Assembly: GCA_003169195.1 (NCBI GenBank)
Contig: PMQB01000601.1
Location: forward strand, 12,893 to 47,356
Source of the DNA: Bryobacterales bacterium
GTDB lineage: Bacteria; Acidobacteriota; Terriglobia; Bryobacterales; Bryobacteraceae
Reading direction: 5' to 3'
DNA length: 34,464 bases
The notes beneath the pieces are model-generated. The model saw only the letters and a program-made list of their open reading frames with translations, had not been told where the DNA came from and did not search any database. The position numbers were made by a program, and so were the translations under genes. Positions 6,469-33,190 of this stretch are shown piece by piece. Every line of letters starts with the position of its first letter. The first letter of the stretch is position 1.

Positions 6469-9400
6469 TTAGAGCGAACTAGTCACCGCCGTTGAAGACA
6501 CCGGATCGAAGAAGATGCCGTTCACGATGGCGTTGTCGCCACCCGTGTGCGTGACTTGAATCTGCACGTGCCCTTTAATCAAATAGATTTCCCACACGCC
6601 GCCGGTAAACGACGCGAACGATTGCGTGCTTAGGACGTTCGAGCTACTCGCGTCGATAATCGTTACGGTCTCTGTTCGGAGGTAGGAATTCCAATCGCAC
6701 AAGTACAGTGAGACTTGGTGCGTGTTGCCATCGGTGAGGTTTACATCAATCGTGAAAGCACTGGCCGAATAATAAACCGAGGCAATCCGCGAACTCGATC
6801 CGCTCGCGGATTGCAGCGCTCGAGGATCACTGGTGGACGTAGTCCATGTGAAGTTGCTACTGCCGCTGAAGTTGACCGCTGCATAAGCCGCAGGGTTCTG
6901 CAATCCATTCGGAATCAACTGTCCATCCGCGCCATACTTGCCCGTCCAATTACCTAGTGTGGCCGAATCCGCGCCGCTATAACTAGCAGAACTGGTCACC
7001 GTGGTCGAAGACACCGGATCAAAGAAGATGCCGTTCACGATGGCGTTATCGCCACCCGTGTGCGTGACTTGAATCTGCACGTGCCCTTTAATCAAATAGC
7101 TTTCCCACACGCCGCCGGTAAACGACGCGAACGATTGCGTGCTTAGGACGTTCGAGCTACTCGCGTCGATAATCGTTACGGTCTCTGTTCGGAGGTAGGA
7201 ATTCCAATCACACAAGTACAGTGAGACTTTGTGCGTGTTGCCATCGGTGAGGTTCACATCAATCGTGAAAGCGCTAGCCGAATAATAAACCGAGGCAATC
7301 CGCGAACTCGACCCGCTCGCGGATTGCAGCGCTCGAGGATCACTGGTGGACGTAGTCCATGTGAAGTTGCTACTGCCCGTTAAGTTTACCGTTGCATAAG
7401 CCGCAGGGTTCTGCAGGCCATTCGGAATCAACTGTCCATCCGCGCCATACTTGCCCGTCCAATTACCTAATGTCACTGAGTCCGCGCCGCTATAACTGGC
7501 CGAACTGGTCACCGTAGTCGAAGACACCGGATCGAAGAAGATGCCGTTTACGATGGCGTTGTCGCCACCCGTGTGCGTGACTTGAATCTGCACGTGCCCT
7601 TTGATCAAATAGCTTTCCCACACGCCGCCGGTAAACGAAGAAAACGATTGCGTGCTCAGAACGTTCGAGTTGCTCGCATCGATAATCGTTACGGTTTCTG
7701 TCCGGAGATAAGAATTCCAATCGCACAAGTACAGCGAGACCTGGTGTGTGTTGCCATCGGTGAGGTTCACATCAATCGTGAAAGCGCTGGCCGAATAATA
7801 AACCGAGGCAATCCGCGAACTCGACCCGCTCGCGGATTGCAGCGCTCGAGGATCAATGGTGGACGTAGTCCATGTGAAGTTGCTACTGCCGCTGAAGTTG
7901 ACCGTTGCATAGGCCGCAGGGTTCTGCAGGCCATTCGGAATCAACTGCCCATCAGCGCCATACTTGCCCGTCCAATTACCTAATGTGCCTGAGTCCGCGC
8001 CCTTGTATGTCGCAGATGCTCCGCTGGCCGCTGCCGTCCCAGTGCCGGTGATTGCTAGGCTCTGAGTCGCTCCATTCACATTGCCGGAGTTATCCGTCAC
8101 CACCAGATTGGCCGTGCGTGCGCCTGTCGCGCTGGGAGTAAACGTCACGGTGATGCTACAAGTCCCGCCTGCCGCCTGCGTTGTGCCGCAATTATTAGAA
8201 ACCCCAAAATCGTGAGCGTTGGCGCCGCTCAACGCAATGCTGGCAATGTTCAGCGTTGCCGATCCGGCATTGCTCAACGTCACCGGCTGCCCGGCGCTCG
8301 TCGTGCCAGTCGTCTGCGATGCGAACGTGAGCGAGCCCGGCGACAGCGATGCCGTCGGCGCCGTCACCACCACGCCGCTCCAGTTGTTCACCAGATTGGC
8401 CACGTTCACCGATCCCAATCCGCTGGCCAGGTCATAGCCCACCCCCGCTGGATACGTCTCCGCCGCCGTGTTGTAATTCGCTTCTCCCGGAACAGCGTTG
8501 GTGCCCACCGTAACATCATTAAAAATACAACCGCTTACAGGCAATACGGACGTGTTCGACGCGTTACACGACCCTAGATTTTCGCTCGCGGCCAATGCGT
8601 ACAAGCGCGGCGTGAGTTGGCCCAAACGTGCACCCGCCTTCTGACTGATCAACGCCACAATACTCGCGAAAGATGGCGCCGATGCCGAGGTTCCGTAGAT
8701 GCCATTGAGCGTCGCGGGCGAGGTCGAACACCCACCCGCCAAGCAAAGAAGATAAGCATCATGTCCTGCCGCCGTGAGAGACACATCCGGCACATCTCGT
8801 ACGCCATCGGCCGGAATCCCCGCTACGCCTGTTTGCCAAGACGGTTTCGCAAAATAGATACTCGCGCCGCCGCCACCCGCCAAAATGCTCCCAGTTCCGC
8901 AAGTGCTGCCTGTGCAGTTGGCGTTCCATACGTCCTCGGGAATATAGGAAACTGCGGAATTGTAATAGCTGCCATTGCTGGTACTCCAATACGCGTTCGA
9001 GCCGTTTTCGTTAAATTGCGTGCCGCCCACCGTGATCGTGTACGGCGAAGAGCCCAAGCCGTTCACCGACACCGGCCCCGTCGCCGATGTCTCGGTATTG
9101 AAGTCGTCGCAACCAGCCGACCCCGCATCACCCGCCGAAACGGTGTAAGTGATTCCTTGCGCGGCCGCTTGTTGCGCGTTTGACGAAATCAAAGCCTCCT
9201 GCGCCGCTGTGAAAGATGCTTCGCACGAACCAAAGCTCTCCGTCATCACGTTGGCCAGATTGTTGTTGATGATGTATGCTTCCGACAAATCCACGCCGTC
9301 GGTAGTATTCGTGCTTTTTGAAACAACCAGATCAACCGTCGCACCCGTCGCTAGTGCACCAGACCAACTCGTATCCAGCACCGCCTCCGCTTCTTCGCCG

Positions 9401-10269
9401 CCACCCAAATCGCCGGGGTCCGTCCCGTTCAGGATAATGTTCGGAGTATTCACCGGCAACCCGAACAGGCTGCGAAAAGAGATAATGTCTTGGATTTTGA
9501 TATTCGTTCTTCCCACCACGGCAATCGTTGTGCCCGCCCCCGTTATCGCCGGATACAGACTGTTCACGTTGTAAATGGTCTGGTAATCCTTTGGCGAAAG
9601 ATAGTGGTTGCCGGAACCTGTGGTGTAATCCGGCATCGGTGAGACATTCGCATTCAGGATCGTCGATTGCGGTGCTGCATGGAAATCGTGCAGTGTGGAA
9701 ACGCCCGCCACTGCATCGGCCAACGCTAGCGGAATCTGTTGGTCACTGGCATTCGCCCAATGGTCAACTCCCTTCACCGTGAACTTATGAATCTCTGTGT
9801 GGAACGCGTTTCGCACTTGCCCCGCTTGGCCCGAAAATTCCAGGAAGCTGCGACCGGGCGCCGTGGGCGCCACTTGAAAACCATGCTTCTGCAGCCAAGC
9901 AGTCACCGTTTGAATGTCGGAATCAGACGCGCCAAACTGTTGGCCAAACTGCTCCGGCGTCAGCCATCTGTGAAAGTTCGGTGAACCGGGTTGCTGCACC
10001 TCTTCCAGGAATTTGTCCAGAGCCGCTTGCCGTTCAGCGCTCCGCTTCAAAACCAAAAGCATTCTCTCCATCGGTAACGAATCCGATGCCGCGCCTCGAT
10101 CAAACTCGGCTCTGGCCATCGGGTGTGTGCTGTGCCCAACGGCCACCAGCCGGCTTTCGTCAATCGTAGACGTGATGAGCGTAGGCGCTTGCGCCGCAAT
10201 AACGCCCTCGCAAAACAAAATCACTAAGGCAAAAGTTACAACGGAAGAATGAAAGTGGGATTTGGACAT
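6469..10269 (-). CDS. Secreted sedolisin-type serine peptidase (S53) with Hydin-like domain and three tail repeats
   Basis: 1266 residues from ATG 10269 (a TTG 12 bp upstream is the alternative). Order: signal peptide (about 1-27); pro-kumamolisin activation domain (about 50-200) with 'RWLTPEQFGQQFG'; S53 catalytic domain (about 215-630); an ASPM/SPD-2/Hydin-like Ig domain (about 640-748, 'GTCSITVTFTPSATGARTA'); then three tandem 171-residue beta-sandwich repeats to the C-terminus. The catalytic set is visible: E295 and D299 (EAEAVLD), oxyanion D381 (SAGDAG), S528 in GTSASAP, and a Ca-site-like GYDLASGLGS near residue 612. The Glu-Asp-Ser triad is intact, so an acid-active extracellular endopeptidase is expected. 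The repeats probably bind carbohydrate or the cell surface. About 120 bp separate it from the DUF1624 gene upstream. Confidence 0.88.
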   Translation of the reverse strand: MSKSHFHSSVVTFALVILFCEGVIAAQAPTLITSTIDESRLVAVGHSTHPMARAEFDRGAASDSLPMERMLLVLKRSAERQAALDKFLEEVQQPGSPNFHRWLTPEQFGQQFGASDSDIQTVTAWLQKHGFQVAPTAPGRSFLEFSGQAGQVRNAFHTEIHKFTVKGVDHWANASDQQIPLALADAVAGVSTLHDFHAAPQSTILNANVSPMPDYTTGSGNHYLSPKDYQTIYNVNSLYPAITGAGTTIAVVGRTNIKIQDIISFRSLFGLPVNTPNIILNGTDPGDLGGGEEAEAVLDTSWSGALATGATVDLVVSKSTNTTDGVDLSEAYIINNNLANVMTESFGSCEASFTAAQEALISSNAQQAAAQGITYTVSAGDAGSAGCDDFNTETSATGPVSVNGLGSSPYTITVGGTQFNENGSNAYWSTSNGSYYNSAVSYIPEDVWNANCTGSTCGTGSILAGGGGASIYFAKPSWQTGVAGIPADGVRDVPDVSLTAAGHDAYLLCLAGGCSTSPATLNGIYGTSASAPSFASIVALISQKAGARLGQLTPRLYALAASENLGSCNASNTSVLPVSGCIFNDVTVGTNAVPGEANYNTAAETYPAGVGYDLASGLGSVNVANLVNNWSGVVVTAPTASLSPGSLTFASQTTGTTSAGQPVTLSNAGSATLNIASIALSGANAHDFGVSNNCGTTQAAGGTCSITVTFTPSATGARTANLVVTDNSGNVNGATQSLAITGTGTAAASGASATYKGADSGTLGNWTGKYGADGQLIPNGLQNPAAYATVNFSGSSNFTWTTSTIDPRALQSASGSSSRIASVYYSASAFTIDVNLTDGNTHQVSLYLCDWNSYLRTETVTIIDASNSNVLSTQSFSSFTGGVWESYLIKGHVQIQVTHTGGDNAIVNGIFFDPVSSTTVTSSASYSGADSVTLGNWTGKYGADGQLIPNGLQNPAAYATVNLTGSSNFTWTTSTSDPRALQSASGSSSRIASVYYSASAFTIDVNLTDGNTHKVSLYLCDWNSYLRTETVTIIDASSSNVLSTQSFASFTGGVWESYLIKGHVQIQVTHTGGDNAIVNGIFFDPVSSTTVTSSASYSGADSATLGNWTGKYGADGQLIPNGLQNPAAYAAVNFSGSSNFTWTTSTSDPRALQSASGSSSRIASVYYSASAFTIDVNLTDGNTHQVSLYLCDWNSYLRTETVTIIDASSSNVLSTQSFASFTGGVWEIYLIKGHVQIQVTHTGGDNAIVNGIFFDPVSSTAVTSSL
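6472..8016 (-). repeat. Three tandem 513-bp in-frame repeats within the S53 gene
   Basis: Copies lie at about 6472-6990, 6991-7503 and 7504-8016. Landmarks recur at exactly 513 bp (the GAAGATGCCGTT motif at 6511, 7024 and 7537). Differences between copies are scattered single bases, many of them silent. Each encodes one 171-residue module starting SATYKGADS or SASYSGADS and ending GIFFDPVSSTTV. Confidence 0.95.
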
Positions 10270-28549: not shown

Positions 28550-28593
28550 CGCCCGAATCCGCGTAAACTGAAGAGAAGACGGAGGACGCAACA

Positions 28594-29457
28594 TTGAATC
28601 CCTTTGATTTCAGCGGTCCCGAATTCCTGCTTTTTTACGCGCTTCTGACTGCGGTAGCGTTACTGGCTCAGCGCTATTGGCGTTTGTCTCGCGAGTCAAG
28701 GGAGGTGACGCAGTCCCCTCCACGGCTGACCGATCCGTACGAAATCGCTTATTTGCGCGGCGGCCCGAATGAGCTCACACGCGTGGCCGTCATTTCGCTT
28801 ATCCAACGCAAGGCGCTGACCGTGATCAAGAATGATTCGCTAATCGCCGACCCGGAATTCGCGCCGCCCAGCCATCCGCTGGAAGATTTGATCTTCAAGT
28901 TCTTCCGCGCGCAGCACAAAGGGTACGAGGTTCTCAAAGACAGTTGGGTGAGCATCCGCGAAAAAGAGCTCTACCAAGAAGGGCTTGTTTCCAAGGGTCT
29001 GCTCCTGGCACCCGACCAGATCAGCCGGCGGCGCCTTGACGCGGCGATCGTGGCAGCCGGGTTGGTCCTGGTTTCCGCCACTAAAATCGCCATAGCGCTG
29101 TCCCGTGGCCACCACAATATTGGGATCCTCATCGTATGTACGCTGTTTGCCGCCGCCGGTTGTTTCGCGGTGGCCAACGGACGTCAATCACCATTAGGAG
29201 TGGAAACGATAAAAGGGCTGACCGAGCTTTTTGACAAGCGCTTTGCCACAAACGCAACTTCGGTAGAACAGGTTGTCCTGGTGGCGGCTGTTTGCGGATT
29301 GCCTGCCTACGCAGCGATCGGCTATCCGTACGCGAAGAAACTTTTCCCGCAAGCCGGCTCCAGTTCCACCTGTGGCTCTTCGTGCGGTTCAAGCGGCAGC
29401 AGCGGTAGCAGTTGTGGCGGCGGCGGTAGCGGCTGCGGTGGGTGCGGCGGCAGTTGA
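28594..29457 (+). CDS. TIGR04222-type membrane protein with Cys/Gly/Ser-rich C-terminal tail (candidate MNIO substrate)
   Basis: 287 residues. Helix 1 (about 10-27), then the conserved cytoplasmic block DPYEIAYLRGG (47-57) with 'RVAVISLIQRKALTV', the signature I associate with TIGR04222 proteins. Helices follow at about 149-170, 174-194 and 226-247. The last 33 residues are only Ser, Gly, Cys and little else, with Cys at 260, 264, 274, 281 and 284 and the end GGCGGS. TTG start: GGAGGA ends 7 bp before TTG 28594 and no better start exists. The stop is 1 bp before the DUF692 gene, so they are translationally coupled. The tail resembles Cys-rich precursor peptides of DUF692/MNIO systems, here joined to a membrane protein. 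I infer it is the modification substrate. Confidence 0.8.
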   Translation: MNPFDFSGPEFLLFYALLTAVALLAQRYWRLSRESREVTQSPPRLTDPYEIAYLRGGPNELTRVAVISLIQRKALTVIKNDSLIADPEFAPPSHPLEDLIFKFFRAQHKGYEVLKDSWVSIREKELYQEGLVSKGLLLAPDQISRRRLDAAIVAAGLVLVSATKIAIALSRGHHNIGILIVCTLFAAAGCFAVANGRQSPLGVETIKGLTELFDKRFATNATSVEQVVLVAAVCGLPAYAAIGYPYAKKLFPQAGSSSTCGSSCGSSGSSGSSCGGGGSGCGGCGGS

Positions 29458-29458
29458 G

Positions 29459-30277
29459 ATGAAAAAAGACCGCTTTGGTATTGGTTGGCGACCGCAGCTC
29501 GCGGCCGGCATCTTCGCCAATCTCGATAAAATCGACATCGTGGAAGTGATCGCTGATGATTACTTTGATGCTTCATCACGCAAAATTTTGGCATTGCGTA
29601 CGCTCGCAGCCCAGACTCCGGTGACGCTGCACGGTGTGGGTCTTGGGCCTGCGTCAACCGTTCCCGTGGAGACGAAGCGCATTGATCAGTTTGCGCGCTT
29701 AATCGGGATGATTGAGCCGGAATCATGGTCGGAACATTTGGCCTGGGTCCGCGGTGGTGGTCTGGATATCGGCCATTTGGCCTCGCCGCCGCGCAATAGT
29801 GCCAGCGTGAACGGCACGCTGGAGAACCTTCACGCTGCCGCGAAGATCGTCGGCACTCCACCATTGGTTGAGAACATTGCATCCCTCATTGATCCGCCTT
29901 TGAGCACCCTCACCGAAGCGCAGTGGCTTTCGCAAGTGATGCAGCACTCAGCCGGAGGTTTACTGCTTGATTTGCACAATGTTTACACCAACGCCACGAA
30001 CTTTGGCTTCGATCCCTACCAGTTCCTCGATTCCATCCCGTTGCAGCAAATCGGCAGCATCCACATTGCGGGCGGCCGGCCAATCGAAGATCGGATTCTA
30101 GACGATCATCTGCACGACGTGCCCGACCCTGTCTACGACTTATTGCGCTACGTTGCGGCACGCACAGACAAGCCTCTCACTGTGATCCTCGAACGCGATG
30201 GCAAGTATCCGCCTATCGCCAGCCTGCTCGCCCAACTCGAGCAAGCGCGCGAAGCAGTCCGCCGTGGCCGCGTATGA
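29459..30277 (+). CDS. DUF692 / MNIO family iron-dependent oxidase
   Basis: 272 residues, a TIM-barrel enzyme. MNIOs (MbnB, TglH, ChrH) use two or three iron ions to oxidise Cys residues in peptide precursors. Candidate metal ligands in family order: H58 (LHGVGLG), E92-H93 (SEHLAWV), H106, E138 (PLVENIA), D171/H173/N174 (LLLDLHNVYTNA), H202 (SIHIAGG), D216-H217 (DDHLHD) and E245 (VILERDGKYPP). No key residue is missing. Start ATG 29459 is 1 bp after the preceding stop; the open frame back to 29273 overlaps the Cys-tail coding region and is not used. The ATG of the next gene overlaps its stop (ATGA). It is slightly shorter at the N-terminus than many homologues. Confidence 0.9.
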   Translation: MKKDRFGIGWRPQLAAGIFANLDKIDIVEVIADDYFDASSRKILALRTLAAQTPVTLHGVGLGPASTVPVETKRIDQFARLIGMIEPESWSEHLAWVRGGGLDIGHLASPPRNSASVNGTLENLHAAAKIVGTPPLVENIASLIDPPLSTLTEAQWLSQVMQHSAGGLLLDLHNVYTNATNFGFDPYQFLDSIPLQQIGSIHIAGGRPIEDRILDDHLHDVPDPVYDLLRYVAARTDKPLTVILERDGKYPPIASLLAQLEQAREAVRRGRV

Positions 30278-30519
30278 GCACGCCAGCCTTCGAAGCATTC
30301 CTGGCACGCATCTATGTAGAACAGGAAACGCGCGACCGCTTTCTGGCCGACCCTAAAGGCGAAGCGTTGCGCGCCGGACTCACGGAAGAACAGGCAACGG
30401 CTCTGGCGAAGATCGATCAAACTGGGCTTCGCTTAGCCGCCAGTAGCTTTGAACGCAAGCGCATGTCAAAGAAAGCGGGCGCGAACCGAACTTGGTTGCT
30501 GCGCCTCTGGAATCACTGA
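30274..30519 (+). CDS. Small MNIO-partner protein (81 residues), unknown family
   Basis: 81 residues, almost wholly helical by pattern: 'FEAFLARIYVEQETRDRFLADP', then 'EALRAGLTEEQATALAKIDQ' and 'LRLAASSFERKR' in part, then a basic tail. The D-P-K/R-G-E-A-x-x-A-G-L block resembles Nif11/LigA-type small helical folds ('F-L-A-D-P...A-G-L'). The start overlaps the MNIO stop by 4 bp (ATGA), so the two are made together. In MNIO clusters the second gene often encodes a precursor-binding partner (DUF2063 or RRE-like). This is a different, shorter protein in that position, and I infer a partner or substrate-recognition role. It has no Cys, so it is not itself a Cys-rich precursor. Confidence 0.75.
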   Translation: MSTPAFEAFLARIYVEQETRDRFLADPKGEALRAGLTEEQATALAKIDQTGLRLAASSFERKRMSKKAGANRTWLLRLWNH

Positions 30520-30520
30520 G

Positions 30521-33190
30521 TCAAAGAGTGGCCAGAATCTGCCGCACTTCGCCTGCGGTGGGAGAGGTAGGGTATAACTCCAGATATCGCTCAAAGTGAG
30601 TCTTCGCCTCCGCGCGACGCCCCAGTTTTAAATCAGCATAGGCCAAGTTCCCGTGCGCTTCCTTGCGGTTTGGATCAAGAGTTAGGGTCTTTTCCAGGAA
30701 CGATACGGCGTCGTTGTAACGGCCCATTTCGAAGTAGATGAAGCCCAGGTTGTTGAGTAACACGGCGTCATTGGGCTTCAGCGCAACGGCTTGTTCCAGG
30801 GCTTTGGCGGCTTCATCATACTTCTTTTCGCGATAAAGGCCGCGCGCCGTGCGGTCCAGATCATACGCGCGCGCTTTGGGCGAACTAGCAGCCGCCGCAG
30901 GCGCGGAAGCAGGTGTGCTCTTCCCTTCCGTTTCCGCCAGCTTCTCCGTTTCGCTGCGAATGCTTTGCTGCAACTTAAGAAGCTCTTCCTGTTTCGCAGC
31001 AATTTGACTATCGAGCGAAGCAAGCTGTTGATTCAAGGCGAGCGACTTGCCTTCGAACTGTTGCGTGAGCGGAGTGAGCGCTTCGGGCTGAAGTTCAAAG
31101 ATAAACTCGCCGCCTTCACTACCGATGAGATTGCCCATGACCGGCGTTTGATGAGAGAAAGAAGCCACCACAGGACTCACGTAAGCGCCTAACTCTGATG
31201 CGGTAATCACACCGTTATGATCGAGATCCGCCTTTCCATCCAAGCCTTCCAGCAGCGCCCAAGTGAACACCGAATGCCCATTAGGCCCGTCGTCCGCCAC
31301 TTCCTGATTCGCACCGCCAGCCGTCAAGATTTGCCGGGCAACGCGACTGGTTACCTCATCTAAATAGGTGTTGGAAGCGCTGAATGAACTGCCGCCGCCG
31401 CGCGTGAGCGCCAAGCCGCTGTAACAGGAGTCCATGACAAAGTAGACATGCTTGGCGGGTATCAGATCAGAGGCCTCGCGAATTTCAGACATACTGACAG
31501 CGGTCGCGTAGTAGTTAGTCTTGTCCGCATCCACGGGAATGATGAAACCGGTCTGCCGGTTTTCGGACATTTCGCGCGTAGCGCCGTGACCTGCGAAGAA
31601 GAAAAAGATGCGGTCATCATGGGAGACCTTGGCTGGGTTCGTCAGTTCATCGCCCAGCACCTGCATGATGTGTGCTCGCGTGGCTTGGCCATCGAGCAGC
31701 TTAAAAATATTCTCGTGTTTGAAGCCAAACTTGTTCACCAGCATCTGTTCCACGGCATTGGCATCGTTCACCGCATAACGCAGTTTAGGCCAAGTCTGAT
31801 AATCATTGATACCGATGATGACGGCCCAACTCTGCCGATAAGGGTTGACCTTCTCGCCCGAGACTGTTTGAACCGGTAGGGGAGCAGGCGTGCTGTCGGC
31901 GCGATTCTCTCCGATGGGAGGTTCGGATTTCACCAGCTTGGTGTTATCGAACGCAAGGAAGGTATAGTTCTGGCGCTGTAACTCGTCTAACACCAAAGGC
32001 AGAGCCAGCACGCTTTGCTTGTGGATATCGTGGAACAAAATGATTCCTTTATGAGATTGATCGAGTTCATGCAGGACGCGCATGGCAATAGATTCCGGGA
32101 TCGGGTCGGCCCAATCCTCCGAATCAATGGTCCACATTACATTCTTGAGTCCTTCGCCGTTAATCTGCGCGAGCACTTGTTTGTTGCGCGCACCATAAGG
32201 AGGACGGAATAACTGCGGCTTCTGGCCCAAGGCTTTCTCAAGCAAGAGGCTGGTGGTTTCGATCTCCTCGCCGCGATCGGCCTCTGAAAGCTTCAAGAGG
32301 ACGCGGTGAGAGTAGGTATGGTTGGCCACTACATGACCCGCTTCAATCAGGCGCTTTGAGATTTCGGTGTTTCGTGAAAGGGTGATGGTGCCGTCTTTAG
32401 CGACCTTGCCCAGGTTCCGGCCGATTTCGAAGAAAGCAGCGCGAATGCCGTATTTGCGCAGCTGAGCCGTGATCTCTTCGGTATAGCGCGGATGGGGACC
32501 GTCGTCAAACGTGAGCGCGACGGTCTTCGGCTCAAAGTCAATTCCCGAGACTTCATTCGGATTGCTTTTGCCGCGCAGCTCGGCAGCAGGTTCTTCGTCA
32601 GAGGTGCCGTCGTCATATTGCTTGAGGAGTTTGTCGCGGTCCTCGAAACTTTTCAGCCAGGCAACATATGCACTCCATTTTTCGCGGACGGCGGAACCGC
32701 CCCGGGTGGCAAATTGGGAGAAGATGCGAGTGACTTCCTCGCGATAGGTGTTCTGAATCGAGTGCAGGTCATCCAACTCGGCCTTCACTCCGGCGGGAGG
32801 TCCGGGAAGGGTGTTCGCTTCTTCAAAAACATCGAGAAAGGCGAGTCGGTCGGCATCGCGCAGCTTGGGCGAAGTGACATAGGCAATCACTTGTTGCAGC
32901 TTTTGCGGCTGAACGCTGAGCGCTTGGGTAAGATCCTCGACGGCGGTTTGTTTTTCAAAAAAGAGTTTGCGTCCCACAGCGCGGCATCGGGTTCGAGTAG
33001 CGGCATCCAGGTCTGCGGCGCCGTCCATGAGAACGATGATGTGCCGGTAGTCGGCGGTAATGGTCTCCAGGCTCGCGCTTAGCTGCGGGTCTTCAGGGAC
33101 ATGTTTATGCAACGAACGCCAAGTGGCAAACGCCAATACCATCAGTACCAGAACTGTTACAGCGAGAGCAATTTTCCGCTTGGTGCGCAT
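30521..33190 (-). CDS. Membrane-anchored fusion: polysaccharide deacetylase (NodB) - caspase-like peptidase (C14) - EF-hand loop - coiled coil - TPR
   Basis: 889 residues. N-terminal anchor (7-23), a helical region (about 35-205), then a NodB carbohydrate-esterase-4 domain (about 222-415): TFDDGPH (227-233, D229/D230), metal ligands H291 and H295 (NHTYSH), RPPYG (329-333) and LFHDI (385-389). Next a caspase-fold peptidase (about 452-700): 'SWAVIIGINDYQTWP', H535 in AGHG and C589 in DSCYSG, an intact His-Cys dyad. An EF-hand-like loop DLDHNGVITASE (655-666) follows, then a coiled coil (about 715-755), an Ala/Ser/Pro linker, and TPRs (about 775-880). All catalytic residues of both enzymes look intact. 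The topology places both enzymes in the periplasm. GAGGGG lies about 9 bp before ATG 33190. It is 12 bp downstream of the aminotransferase gene, so same operon. Confidence 0.88.
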   Translation of the reverse strand: MRTKRKIALAVTVLVLMVLAFATWRSLHKHVPEDPQLSASLETITADYRHIIVLMDGAADLDAATRTRCRAVGRKLFFEKQTAVEDLTQALSVQPQKLQQVIAYVTSPKLRDADRLAFLDVFEEANTLPGPPAGVKAELDDLHSIQNTYREEVTRIFSQFATRGGSAVREKWSAYVAWLKSFEDRDKLLKQYDDGTSDEEPAAELRGKSNPNEVSGIDFEPKTVALTFDDGPHPRYTEEITAQLRKYGIRAAFFEIGRNLGKVAKDGTITLSRNTEISKRLIEAGHVVANHTYSHRVLLKLSEADRGEEIETTSLLLEKALGQKPQLFRPPYGARNKQVLAQINGEGLKNVMWTIDSEDWADPIPESIAMRVLHELDQSHKGIILFHDIHKQSVLALPLVLDELQRQNYTFLAFDNTKLVKSEPPIGENRADSTPAPLPVQTVSGEKVNPYRQSWAVIIGINDYQTWPKLRYAVNDANAVEQMLVNKFGFKHENIFKLLDGQATRAHIMQVLGDELTNPAKVSHDDRIFFFFAGHGATREMSENRQTGFIIPVDADKTNYYATAVSMSEIREASDLIPAKHVYFVMDSCYSGLALTRGGGSSFSASNTYLDEVTSRVARQILTAGGANQEVADDGPNGHSVFTWALLEGLDGKADLDHNGVITASELGAYVSPVVASFSHQTPVMGNLIGSEGGEFIFELQPEALTPLTQQFEGKSLALNQQLASLDSQIAAKQEELLKLQQSIRSETEKLAETEGKSTPASAPAAAASSPKARAYDLDRTARGLYREKKYDEAAKALEQAVALKPNDAVLLNNLGFIYFEMGRYNDAVSFLEKTLTLDPNRKEAHGNLAYADLKLGRRAEAKTHFERYLELYPTSPTAGEVRQILATL

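Follow-up and report, generated by a model that had tools for sequence, protein, structure and literature searches.

A subset of the TIGR04222 membrane proteins has been proposed as substrates of MNIO enzymes (Antoine et al., 2025; PMC12452194). According to the text of that survey, TIGR04222 accounts for 40% of the Cys-containing proteins that lack a signal peptide and are encoded ahead of MNIO genes, and its members carry Ser/Gly/Cys tails whose location was inferred to be periplasmic. The clusters are reported to contain a PME-type 2 partner (at least 10% of them) or none, and one third of the genomes with TIGR04222 proteins to have no MNIO. MNIO-PME1 enzymes are described as forming copper-binding 5-thiooxazoles (PMC12668002), and the reported 5-thiooxazole formers have DUF2063 partners and act on precursors with a signal peptide, at sites such as Lys-Cys-Gly (PMC12452194, PMC12668002). 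Thiooxazole formation is also attributed to SbtM in a review (PMC11002830). Leaders of the NHLP type are described as rigid helical bundles, the folded part of which can bind their enzymes (PMC12455567).

We analyzed a locus of a Bryobacterales bacterium (contig PMQB01000601.1) in a window of 34,464 nucleotides, by which we mean the whole stretch of DNA under study. Three adjoining genes encode a TIGR04222 protein with a Cys-rich tail, an MNIO and an 81-residue protein. The best overall explanation, with a probability of about 0.6, is a membrane-tethered RiPP-like protein whose tail would be matured by the MNIO together with the 81-residue protein. The original prediction, made from this DNA, had also taken the tail to be the substrate; co-occurrence of the genes, similar tails on other scaffolds and exchange of the MNIO for SbtM support this, but the idea is not new, because it had already been proposed by Antoine et al. 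(2025). What looks new is the identity of the small partner and an apparent swap of the maturase to SbtM. The terms NHLP, Nif11, LigA, Os17 and SbtM do not occur in the main text of PMC12452194, and the literature that we searched contained neither a statement of a leader-like (NHLP/Os1348/LigA) identity for the small partner nor a report of MNIO/SbtM exchange at TIGR04222 loci.

Gene order and conservation of the triad

The triad occupies positions 28594-30519 of the forward strand and is tightly packed (Table 1). Re-reading the sequence returned the coordinates, junctions and products as first described. The TIGR04222 gene starts with TTG, its TGA is separated by 1 bp from the ATG of the MNIO gene, and the latter overlaps the 81-codon gene by 4 bp (ATGA). 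Both family assignments are well above the cutoffs, with 99.4 bits for TIGR04222 (NCBIfam cutoff, 43) and 223.8 bits for the MNIO against PF05114 (Pfam cutoff, 25). A B3/4-domain gene on the same strand ends 44 bp upstream, so a transcript could be shared with the triad. The downstream gene is convergent; it encodes (30521-33190) an 889-residue protein with polysaccharide deacetylase, caspase (C14) and TPR domains.

Table 1. Positions in the window of the triad and of the features read within it
Feature	Position	Strand	Basis
Likely ribosome-binding site GGAGG	28581..28585	+	8 nt before the TTG start, read in sequence
TIGR04222 membrane protein, 287 aa, tail carrier	28594..29457	+	NCBIfam TIGR04222; hydrophobic segments
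Ser/Gly/Cys C-terminal tail, 33 aa, 5 Cys, proposed substrate	29356..29454	+	Translation; recurrence in relatives
MNIO (DUF692, PF05114) enzyme, 272 aa	29459..30277	+	PF05114; conserved H/D/E/N; tail-associated MNIO clade
81-aa NHLP/Os1348/LigA-like helical protein, proposed MNIO docking partner	30274..30519	+	Profile, Foldseek, NF038399, fusions

We searched for the triad in 396 genomes of the same phylum and in 188 genomes of a second phylum (that of G396). TIGR04222 proteins above cutoff were found in 19 and 5 of these genomes, respectively. An MNIO gene adjoins TIGR04222 in 15 of the 19 (the exceptions are G059, G062, G144 and G377) and is at the TIGR04222 locus in 3 of the 5. The Ser/Gly/Cys tail, which translation confirms in the window protein with its five Cys, is present in 21 of the 24 genomes, 18 with an MNIO, 2 with SbtM and 1 (G059, a tail with 3 Cys) with neither an MNIO nor an SbtM above cutoff; these counts leave out G532, G377 and G144 and do not consider TIGR04222 matches below cutoff. 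No Cys tail and no maturase were found at the locus in G377 or G532, the latter having an MNIO on another contig. Across both samples, the domain of the small protein is encoded at 16 of the 18 TIGR04222-MNIO loci. Thus, the triad is conserved, and the absence of conserved co-occurrence that would have argued against the original prediction was not observed.

The window MNIO has all of the 14 His, Asp, Glu or Asn positions shared by 52 or more of 54 aligned MNIOs (E29, H58, H93, E138, N139, E153, D171, N174, N181, H202, D215, H217, E245 and D247), and it carries Gln259 where 50 of the 54 have Glu. In a tree of 58 MNIOs, which includes four distant MNIO-like sequences kept out of the residue count, the 22 that are linked to a tail or partner form one clade (support, 97/89). 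Nested in it is a clade of ten (100/100) that contains the window enzyme and in which every partner is either short (80-101 residues, four of these lengths counted from chosen internal starts) or fused; the six triads outside this clade have long partners. Some long-branch sequences in the tree are uncertainly placed. A scan of genome contigs with the MNIO alone as query gave only two distant MNIOs.

The membrane protein had been described as a four-helix protein; three hydrophobic segments are clear and the fourth, just before the tail, is only borderline. We examined topology in the 21 tail proteins by hydropathy and the positive-inside rule. The number of Lys and Arg residues is higher after than before the first transmembrane segment in 17 of the 21, and it is higher after the third segment than in the loop between the second and third in 18 of the 21 (in G499, the first segment picked by the script was poor, 0.64). 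These biases favor a TIGR04222 N-terminus outside and a main domain inside. The segment preceding the tail has a mean Kyte-Doolittle value of 1.68, reaches at least 1.6 in 16 of the 21 proteins and shows no net charge bias (8 versus 8). Being borderline, it would allow a cytoplasmic tail or a periplasmic one, as inferred in PMC12452194. A single-sequence AlphaFold2 model of the TIGR04222 protein had a pLDDT of 41.4 and was discarded.

A nucleotidyltransferase (NTase)-like gene was not found beside the window triad, yet one lies upstream of TIGR04222, or of the protein that takes its place in G116, at 6 of the 19 loci of the first set, three of them profile sources, and at all 6 loci examined among 11 TIGR04222 matches of the second phylum. 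The pairing also holds at two loci of the second phylum without a Cys tail (G532 and G444, the latter below cutoff). Possibly, the NTase is the older partner of TIGR04222. NTase-fold genes upstream of TIGR04222 were seen at L020:8704-9471 and L022:1638-2384 and in L021, L091, L094, L117 and L143-L148, and PADLOC returned weak matches of the NTase to the candidate defence families PDC-S09 and PDC-M05A.

The small partner of the MNIO

We built a profile of the small partner from six relatives, all from MNIO loci, and ran it on the 396 genomes. All 15 matches with E below 1e-8 have an MNIO gene at a distance of about 1 kb or less. Six of these are rows of the profile itself and two were already known through TIGR04222, so the independent figure is 7 of 7 (G307, G243, G347, G360, G346, G116 and G368). 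Among the weaker matches, 1 of 30 is at an MNIO (G042, a fusion). Os1348-like small proteins elsewhere in the phylum (E of 6.9e-7 and weaker) are located away from MNIOs, and we excluded them from the partner counts. In G464, the MNIO carries the small domain as a C-terminal fusion, as does the MNIO of G042, where the domain lacks its middle part. The small domain was undetectable at the MNIO-containing loci of G259, which has a 194-residue frame in the partner's place, and G499, where the MNIO frame has a long C-terminal extension. In G368 (L095), the N-terminus of a 279-residue partner matches the small domain and short Cys-rich peptide frames lie near the MNIO, in what looks like a different RiPP cluster.

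Within a conserved family of MNIO partners, the 81-residue protein represents the minimal version. The original prediction had called it a new type of partner, which holds for its leader-like identity, apparently unreported, but not for the family, which is conserved and perhaps described: the long forms may be the PME-type 2 proteins named in PMC12452194, or the 81-residue protein may be the adjamnio-V of that text. The protein is helical, as had been read from the sequence, in a single-sequence model with a pLDDT of 73.7. A Nif11-like or RRE-like fold had also been suggested. This comes close, with the best relatives falling in the NHLP clan; these are not RREs.

Several searches point to that clan. 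The window protein itself scores 25 bits against NF038399 (Os1348 family, NHLP clan; cutoff, 40) and 24.1 bits against LigA (25.3), both below cutoff. One of its short homologues passes the NF038399 cutoff with 46.3 bits, others score 36.2, 33 and 31.9 bits, and one is unmatched; the long partners reach 27.6, 26.5 and 18.2 bits, again with one unmatched. Searched against PDB sequences, the family profile retrieved the nitrile hydratase alpha chain first (E of 4e-4, a sum of weak pieces), followed by Os1348 (6lk7, 6e-4, one stretch) and SonA (0.017). Foldseek placed Os1348 and then SonA on top for the single-sequence model, with weak E values (0.7 and up). Judged by profiles and a predicted fold, the family thus resembles the nitrile-hydratase-like-leader/Os1348/LigA clan.

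A rival reading, unlikely but the best of the alternatives, is that the 81-residue protein is a worn-down PME-type 2 (DUF2063-like) partner and that it resembles NHLPs only in the way that small helical bundles resemble one another. Built from the short proteins, the profile does reach the longer partners (159-211-residue frames) at MNIO loci with E of about 1e-18 to 1e-10, and PME-type 2 partners are reported in at least 10% of the TIGR04222 clusters (PMC12452194). However, chains of the NHLP/LigA clan came first separately in the sequence-profile and fold searches, and one homologue passes a curated Os1348-family cutoff. Furthermore, the profile of the long partners found nothing convincing in the PDB and no known partner. 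No DUF2063 structure is among the best 50 of 58 Foldseek matches to the single-sequence model; NGO1945 (3dee) and TglI (8hi7) are likewise absent from these and from the profile searches. With Pfam, the 81-residue protein gave no DUF2063 match up to E 1, which places it outside PME-type 1 and the captophorin partners. The two readings would be compatible if the N-termini of PME-type 2 proteins were themselves NHLP-like.

Tails, scaffolds and maturases

The last 62 residues of the 21 tail proteins contain 134 Cys, a few of them ahead of the tail proper, and the residue after Cys is Gly in 106, Ser in 27 and Ala in 1. Gly makes up 327 of the 580 Gly and Ser residues in the last 45 positions, and the motif CGGC occurs in 18 of the 21 proteins. 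Tails of the same kind are not confined to TIGR04222. In G116, a different protein (182-residue frame) with hydrophobic segments recognized by eye and no Pfam or NCBIfam match, scanned from an inner start, carries one ahead of an MNIO and partner. A 738-residue frame with a below-cutoff TIGR04222 match (G496, L141) has a Ser/Gly/Cys tail at its C-terminus, six of its last 60 residues being Cys, and Nonomuraea gerenzanensis (L131) has a tandem pair of TIGR04222-like genes, both with Cys-containing tails, followed by one MNIO and partner.

At some loci, the enzyme beside the tail is SbtM (TIGR04082), a radical SAM maturase of the thio(seleno)oxazole type. SbtM was found above cutoff (350 bits) in 1 of 203 and 4 of 188 genomes, and it adjoins TIGR04222 at two of these five loci, in different phyla: G062 (496.7 bits) and G433 (474.4 bits). 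Both matches cover the last 320 or so of the 516 TIGR04082 positions. Neither of the two assemblies yielded an MNIO. The gene order in G062 (NTase, TIGR04222 with Cys tail, TrkA-type channel, SbtM) can be set beside that in G026 (NTase, TIGR04222, MNIO, small protein and, recognized by eye, a TrkA-like gene); G433, of the second phylum, has NTase, TIGR04222 with Cys tail and SbtM in succession. Since MNIO and SbtM are unrelated enzymes with the same reported product and occupy the same place, the two loci argue that the tail product is thiooxazole. The other three SbtM genomes have MNIOs elsewhere in the genome. The protein encoded directly before SbtM in G468 (L154:7340-8740) has an Asp/Ser/Gly tail with three Cys and no Pfam or NCBIfam match, and is possibly a new type of SbtM substrate; G510 has a short Cys-containing peptide frame ahead of SbtM, and no tail protein was seen beside SbtM in G424. 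TrkA-N channel/RCK genes lie near the tail cassettes of G062 (L020:6008-7849), G026 (L022:4364-5863) and, divergently, G468 (L154:5811-7490), the last two identified by eye.

Given these loci, we regard modification of the tail as very probable and 5-thiooxazole as its probable product. A different outcome, in which the Cys would undergo other chemistry (such as oxazolone-thioamide formation or beta-carbon excision), giving a redox-active or structural tail rather than a copper ligand, is consistent with the diversity of MNIO chemistry reported in PMC12452194 and elsewhere and with the separation of the tail-linked MNIOs, as a clade of their own, from the other sampled MNIOs. It nevertheless seems rather improbable, because a reported thiooxazole former stands at the same place in two genomes without a detected MNIO and because the best NCBIfam model for the window MNIO is BufB (NF050167), even if the score of 189.5 bits falls short of the cutoff (310). 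The analogy has its own difficulty, as Ser or Gly precedes Cys in these tails, versus Lys in the reported Lys-Cys-Gly sites. Nor need every tail become thiooxazole. In G144 (L027:5927-8677, frame 7129-10086), a large membrane protein with a TIGR04222-like part (40.1 bits when scanned as a protein, slightly short of the cutoff of 43, which the frame exceeded) ends in Ala-Cys-His-Ser repeats, and 11 of its last 60 residues are Cys. It is directly followed by a radical SAM/SPASM gene whose best NCBIfam match scores 103.7 bits against a cutoff of 500, with no cutoff passed among the best 25 of 68 matches. The locus shows that a third type of enzyme can stand at this place, and it is possibly another system for the maturation of protein tails.

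The weakest alternative, that the Cys tail works unmodified (binding zinc or another metal, or forming disulfides) and the MNIO acts on another, unseen substrate, would account for the tail of G059, with neither MNIO nor SbtM, and for the TIGR04222 proteins that pair with an NTase-like gene even where tail and maturase are lacking (G532 and G444, the latter below cutoff), but it is hardly credible given that an MNIO or SbtM is at the locus for 20 of 21 Ser/Gly/Cys tails and for neither of two tail-less proteins, and that similar tails lie beside MNIO or SbtM on other scaffolds.

Proposed role and relation to known systems

In the mechanism that we favor, the MNIO, guided by the 81-residue protein, would oxidize Cys residues in the Ser/Gly/Cys tail, with 5-thiooxazoles as the likeliest result. 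The modified tail would then be a multidentate ligand for a soft metal such as Cu(I), fixed at the inner membrane. By analogy with the copper-binding products of other MNIOs, we tentatively suggest copper binding or buffering as its role; the iron or redox role of the original prediction found no support, and copper is the better guess. The NHLP-type helical domain of the 81-residue protein, unattached to the substrate, would act in trans as the docking and recognition subunit of the MNIO and replace the leader peptide or DUF2063 partner. We consider such a leader-in-trans role evenly balanced between being right and wrong. In a broader and somewhat more doubtful proposal, Ser/Gly/Cys tails could be a portable tag carried by different proteins (TIGR04222, another membrane protein and a protein of no known family) and matured by either MNIO or SbtM. 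The NHLP-like leader would have been severed from the substrate and retained as an independent subunit acting in trans, as in the window, or sometimes fused to the enzyme. If true, thiooxazole metallophores also exist as membrane-anchored parts of proteins, the exchange of enzymes predicts the product (5-thiooxazole) of uncharacterized TIGR04222 clusters, and the minimal 81-residue partner offers a testable answer to how leaderless MNIO substrates are recognized.

Among described systems, the TIGR04222-MNIO clusters reported in PMC12452194 share with the window the membrane family, the Ser/Gly/Cys tails, the adjoining MNIO and the proposal of the tail as substrate. DUF2207 proteins are related on the side of the scaffold: the TIGR04222 match of G377 also hits Pfam DUF2207 and DUF2207_C, the latter overlapping a large part of the TIGR04222 region, and the protein ends in a Gly tail, but it differs in having no Cys tail and no maturase at its locus. 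SbtM, reported to make thiooxazole from Cys, is found beside the TIGR04222 Cys tails of G062 and G433, yet it is a radical SAM enzyme unrelated to MNIO and is missing from the window locus. Like the captophorins and bufferins (BufA-BufB-BufC, oxazolin, fontiphorin), the locus would use an MNIO together with a partner to modify Cys, Cys-Gly sites included. Those systems bind copper and combine precursors bearing a Sec signal peptide with a DUF2063 partner, whereas the substrate proposed here is, by hydropathy, a multi-span membrane protein. The window MNIO also differs from the bufferin enzymes in scoring below the BufB cutoff, and it belongs to a clade separate from the bulk of the sampled MNIOs of the phylum. 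Lastly, the leaders of the Os1348, NHLP and LigA-domain type include the closest solved relatives of the 81-residue family (Os1348, nitrile hydratase alpha and SonA). In SonA and MprE, however, the leader domain is attached to the core peptide, whereas in the 81-residue family it is either a separate protein or fused to the enzyme.
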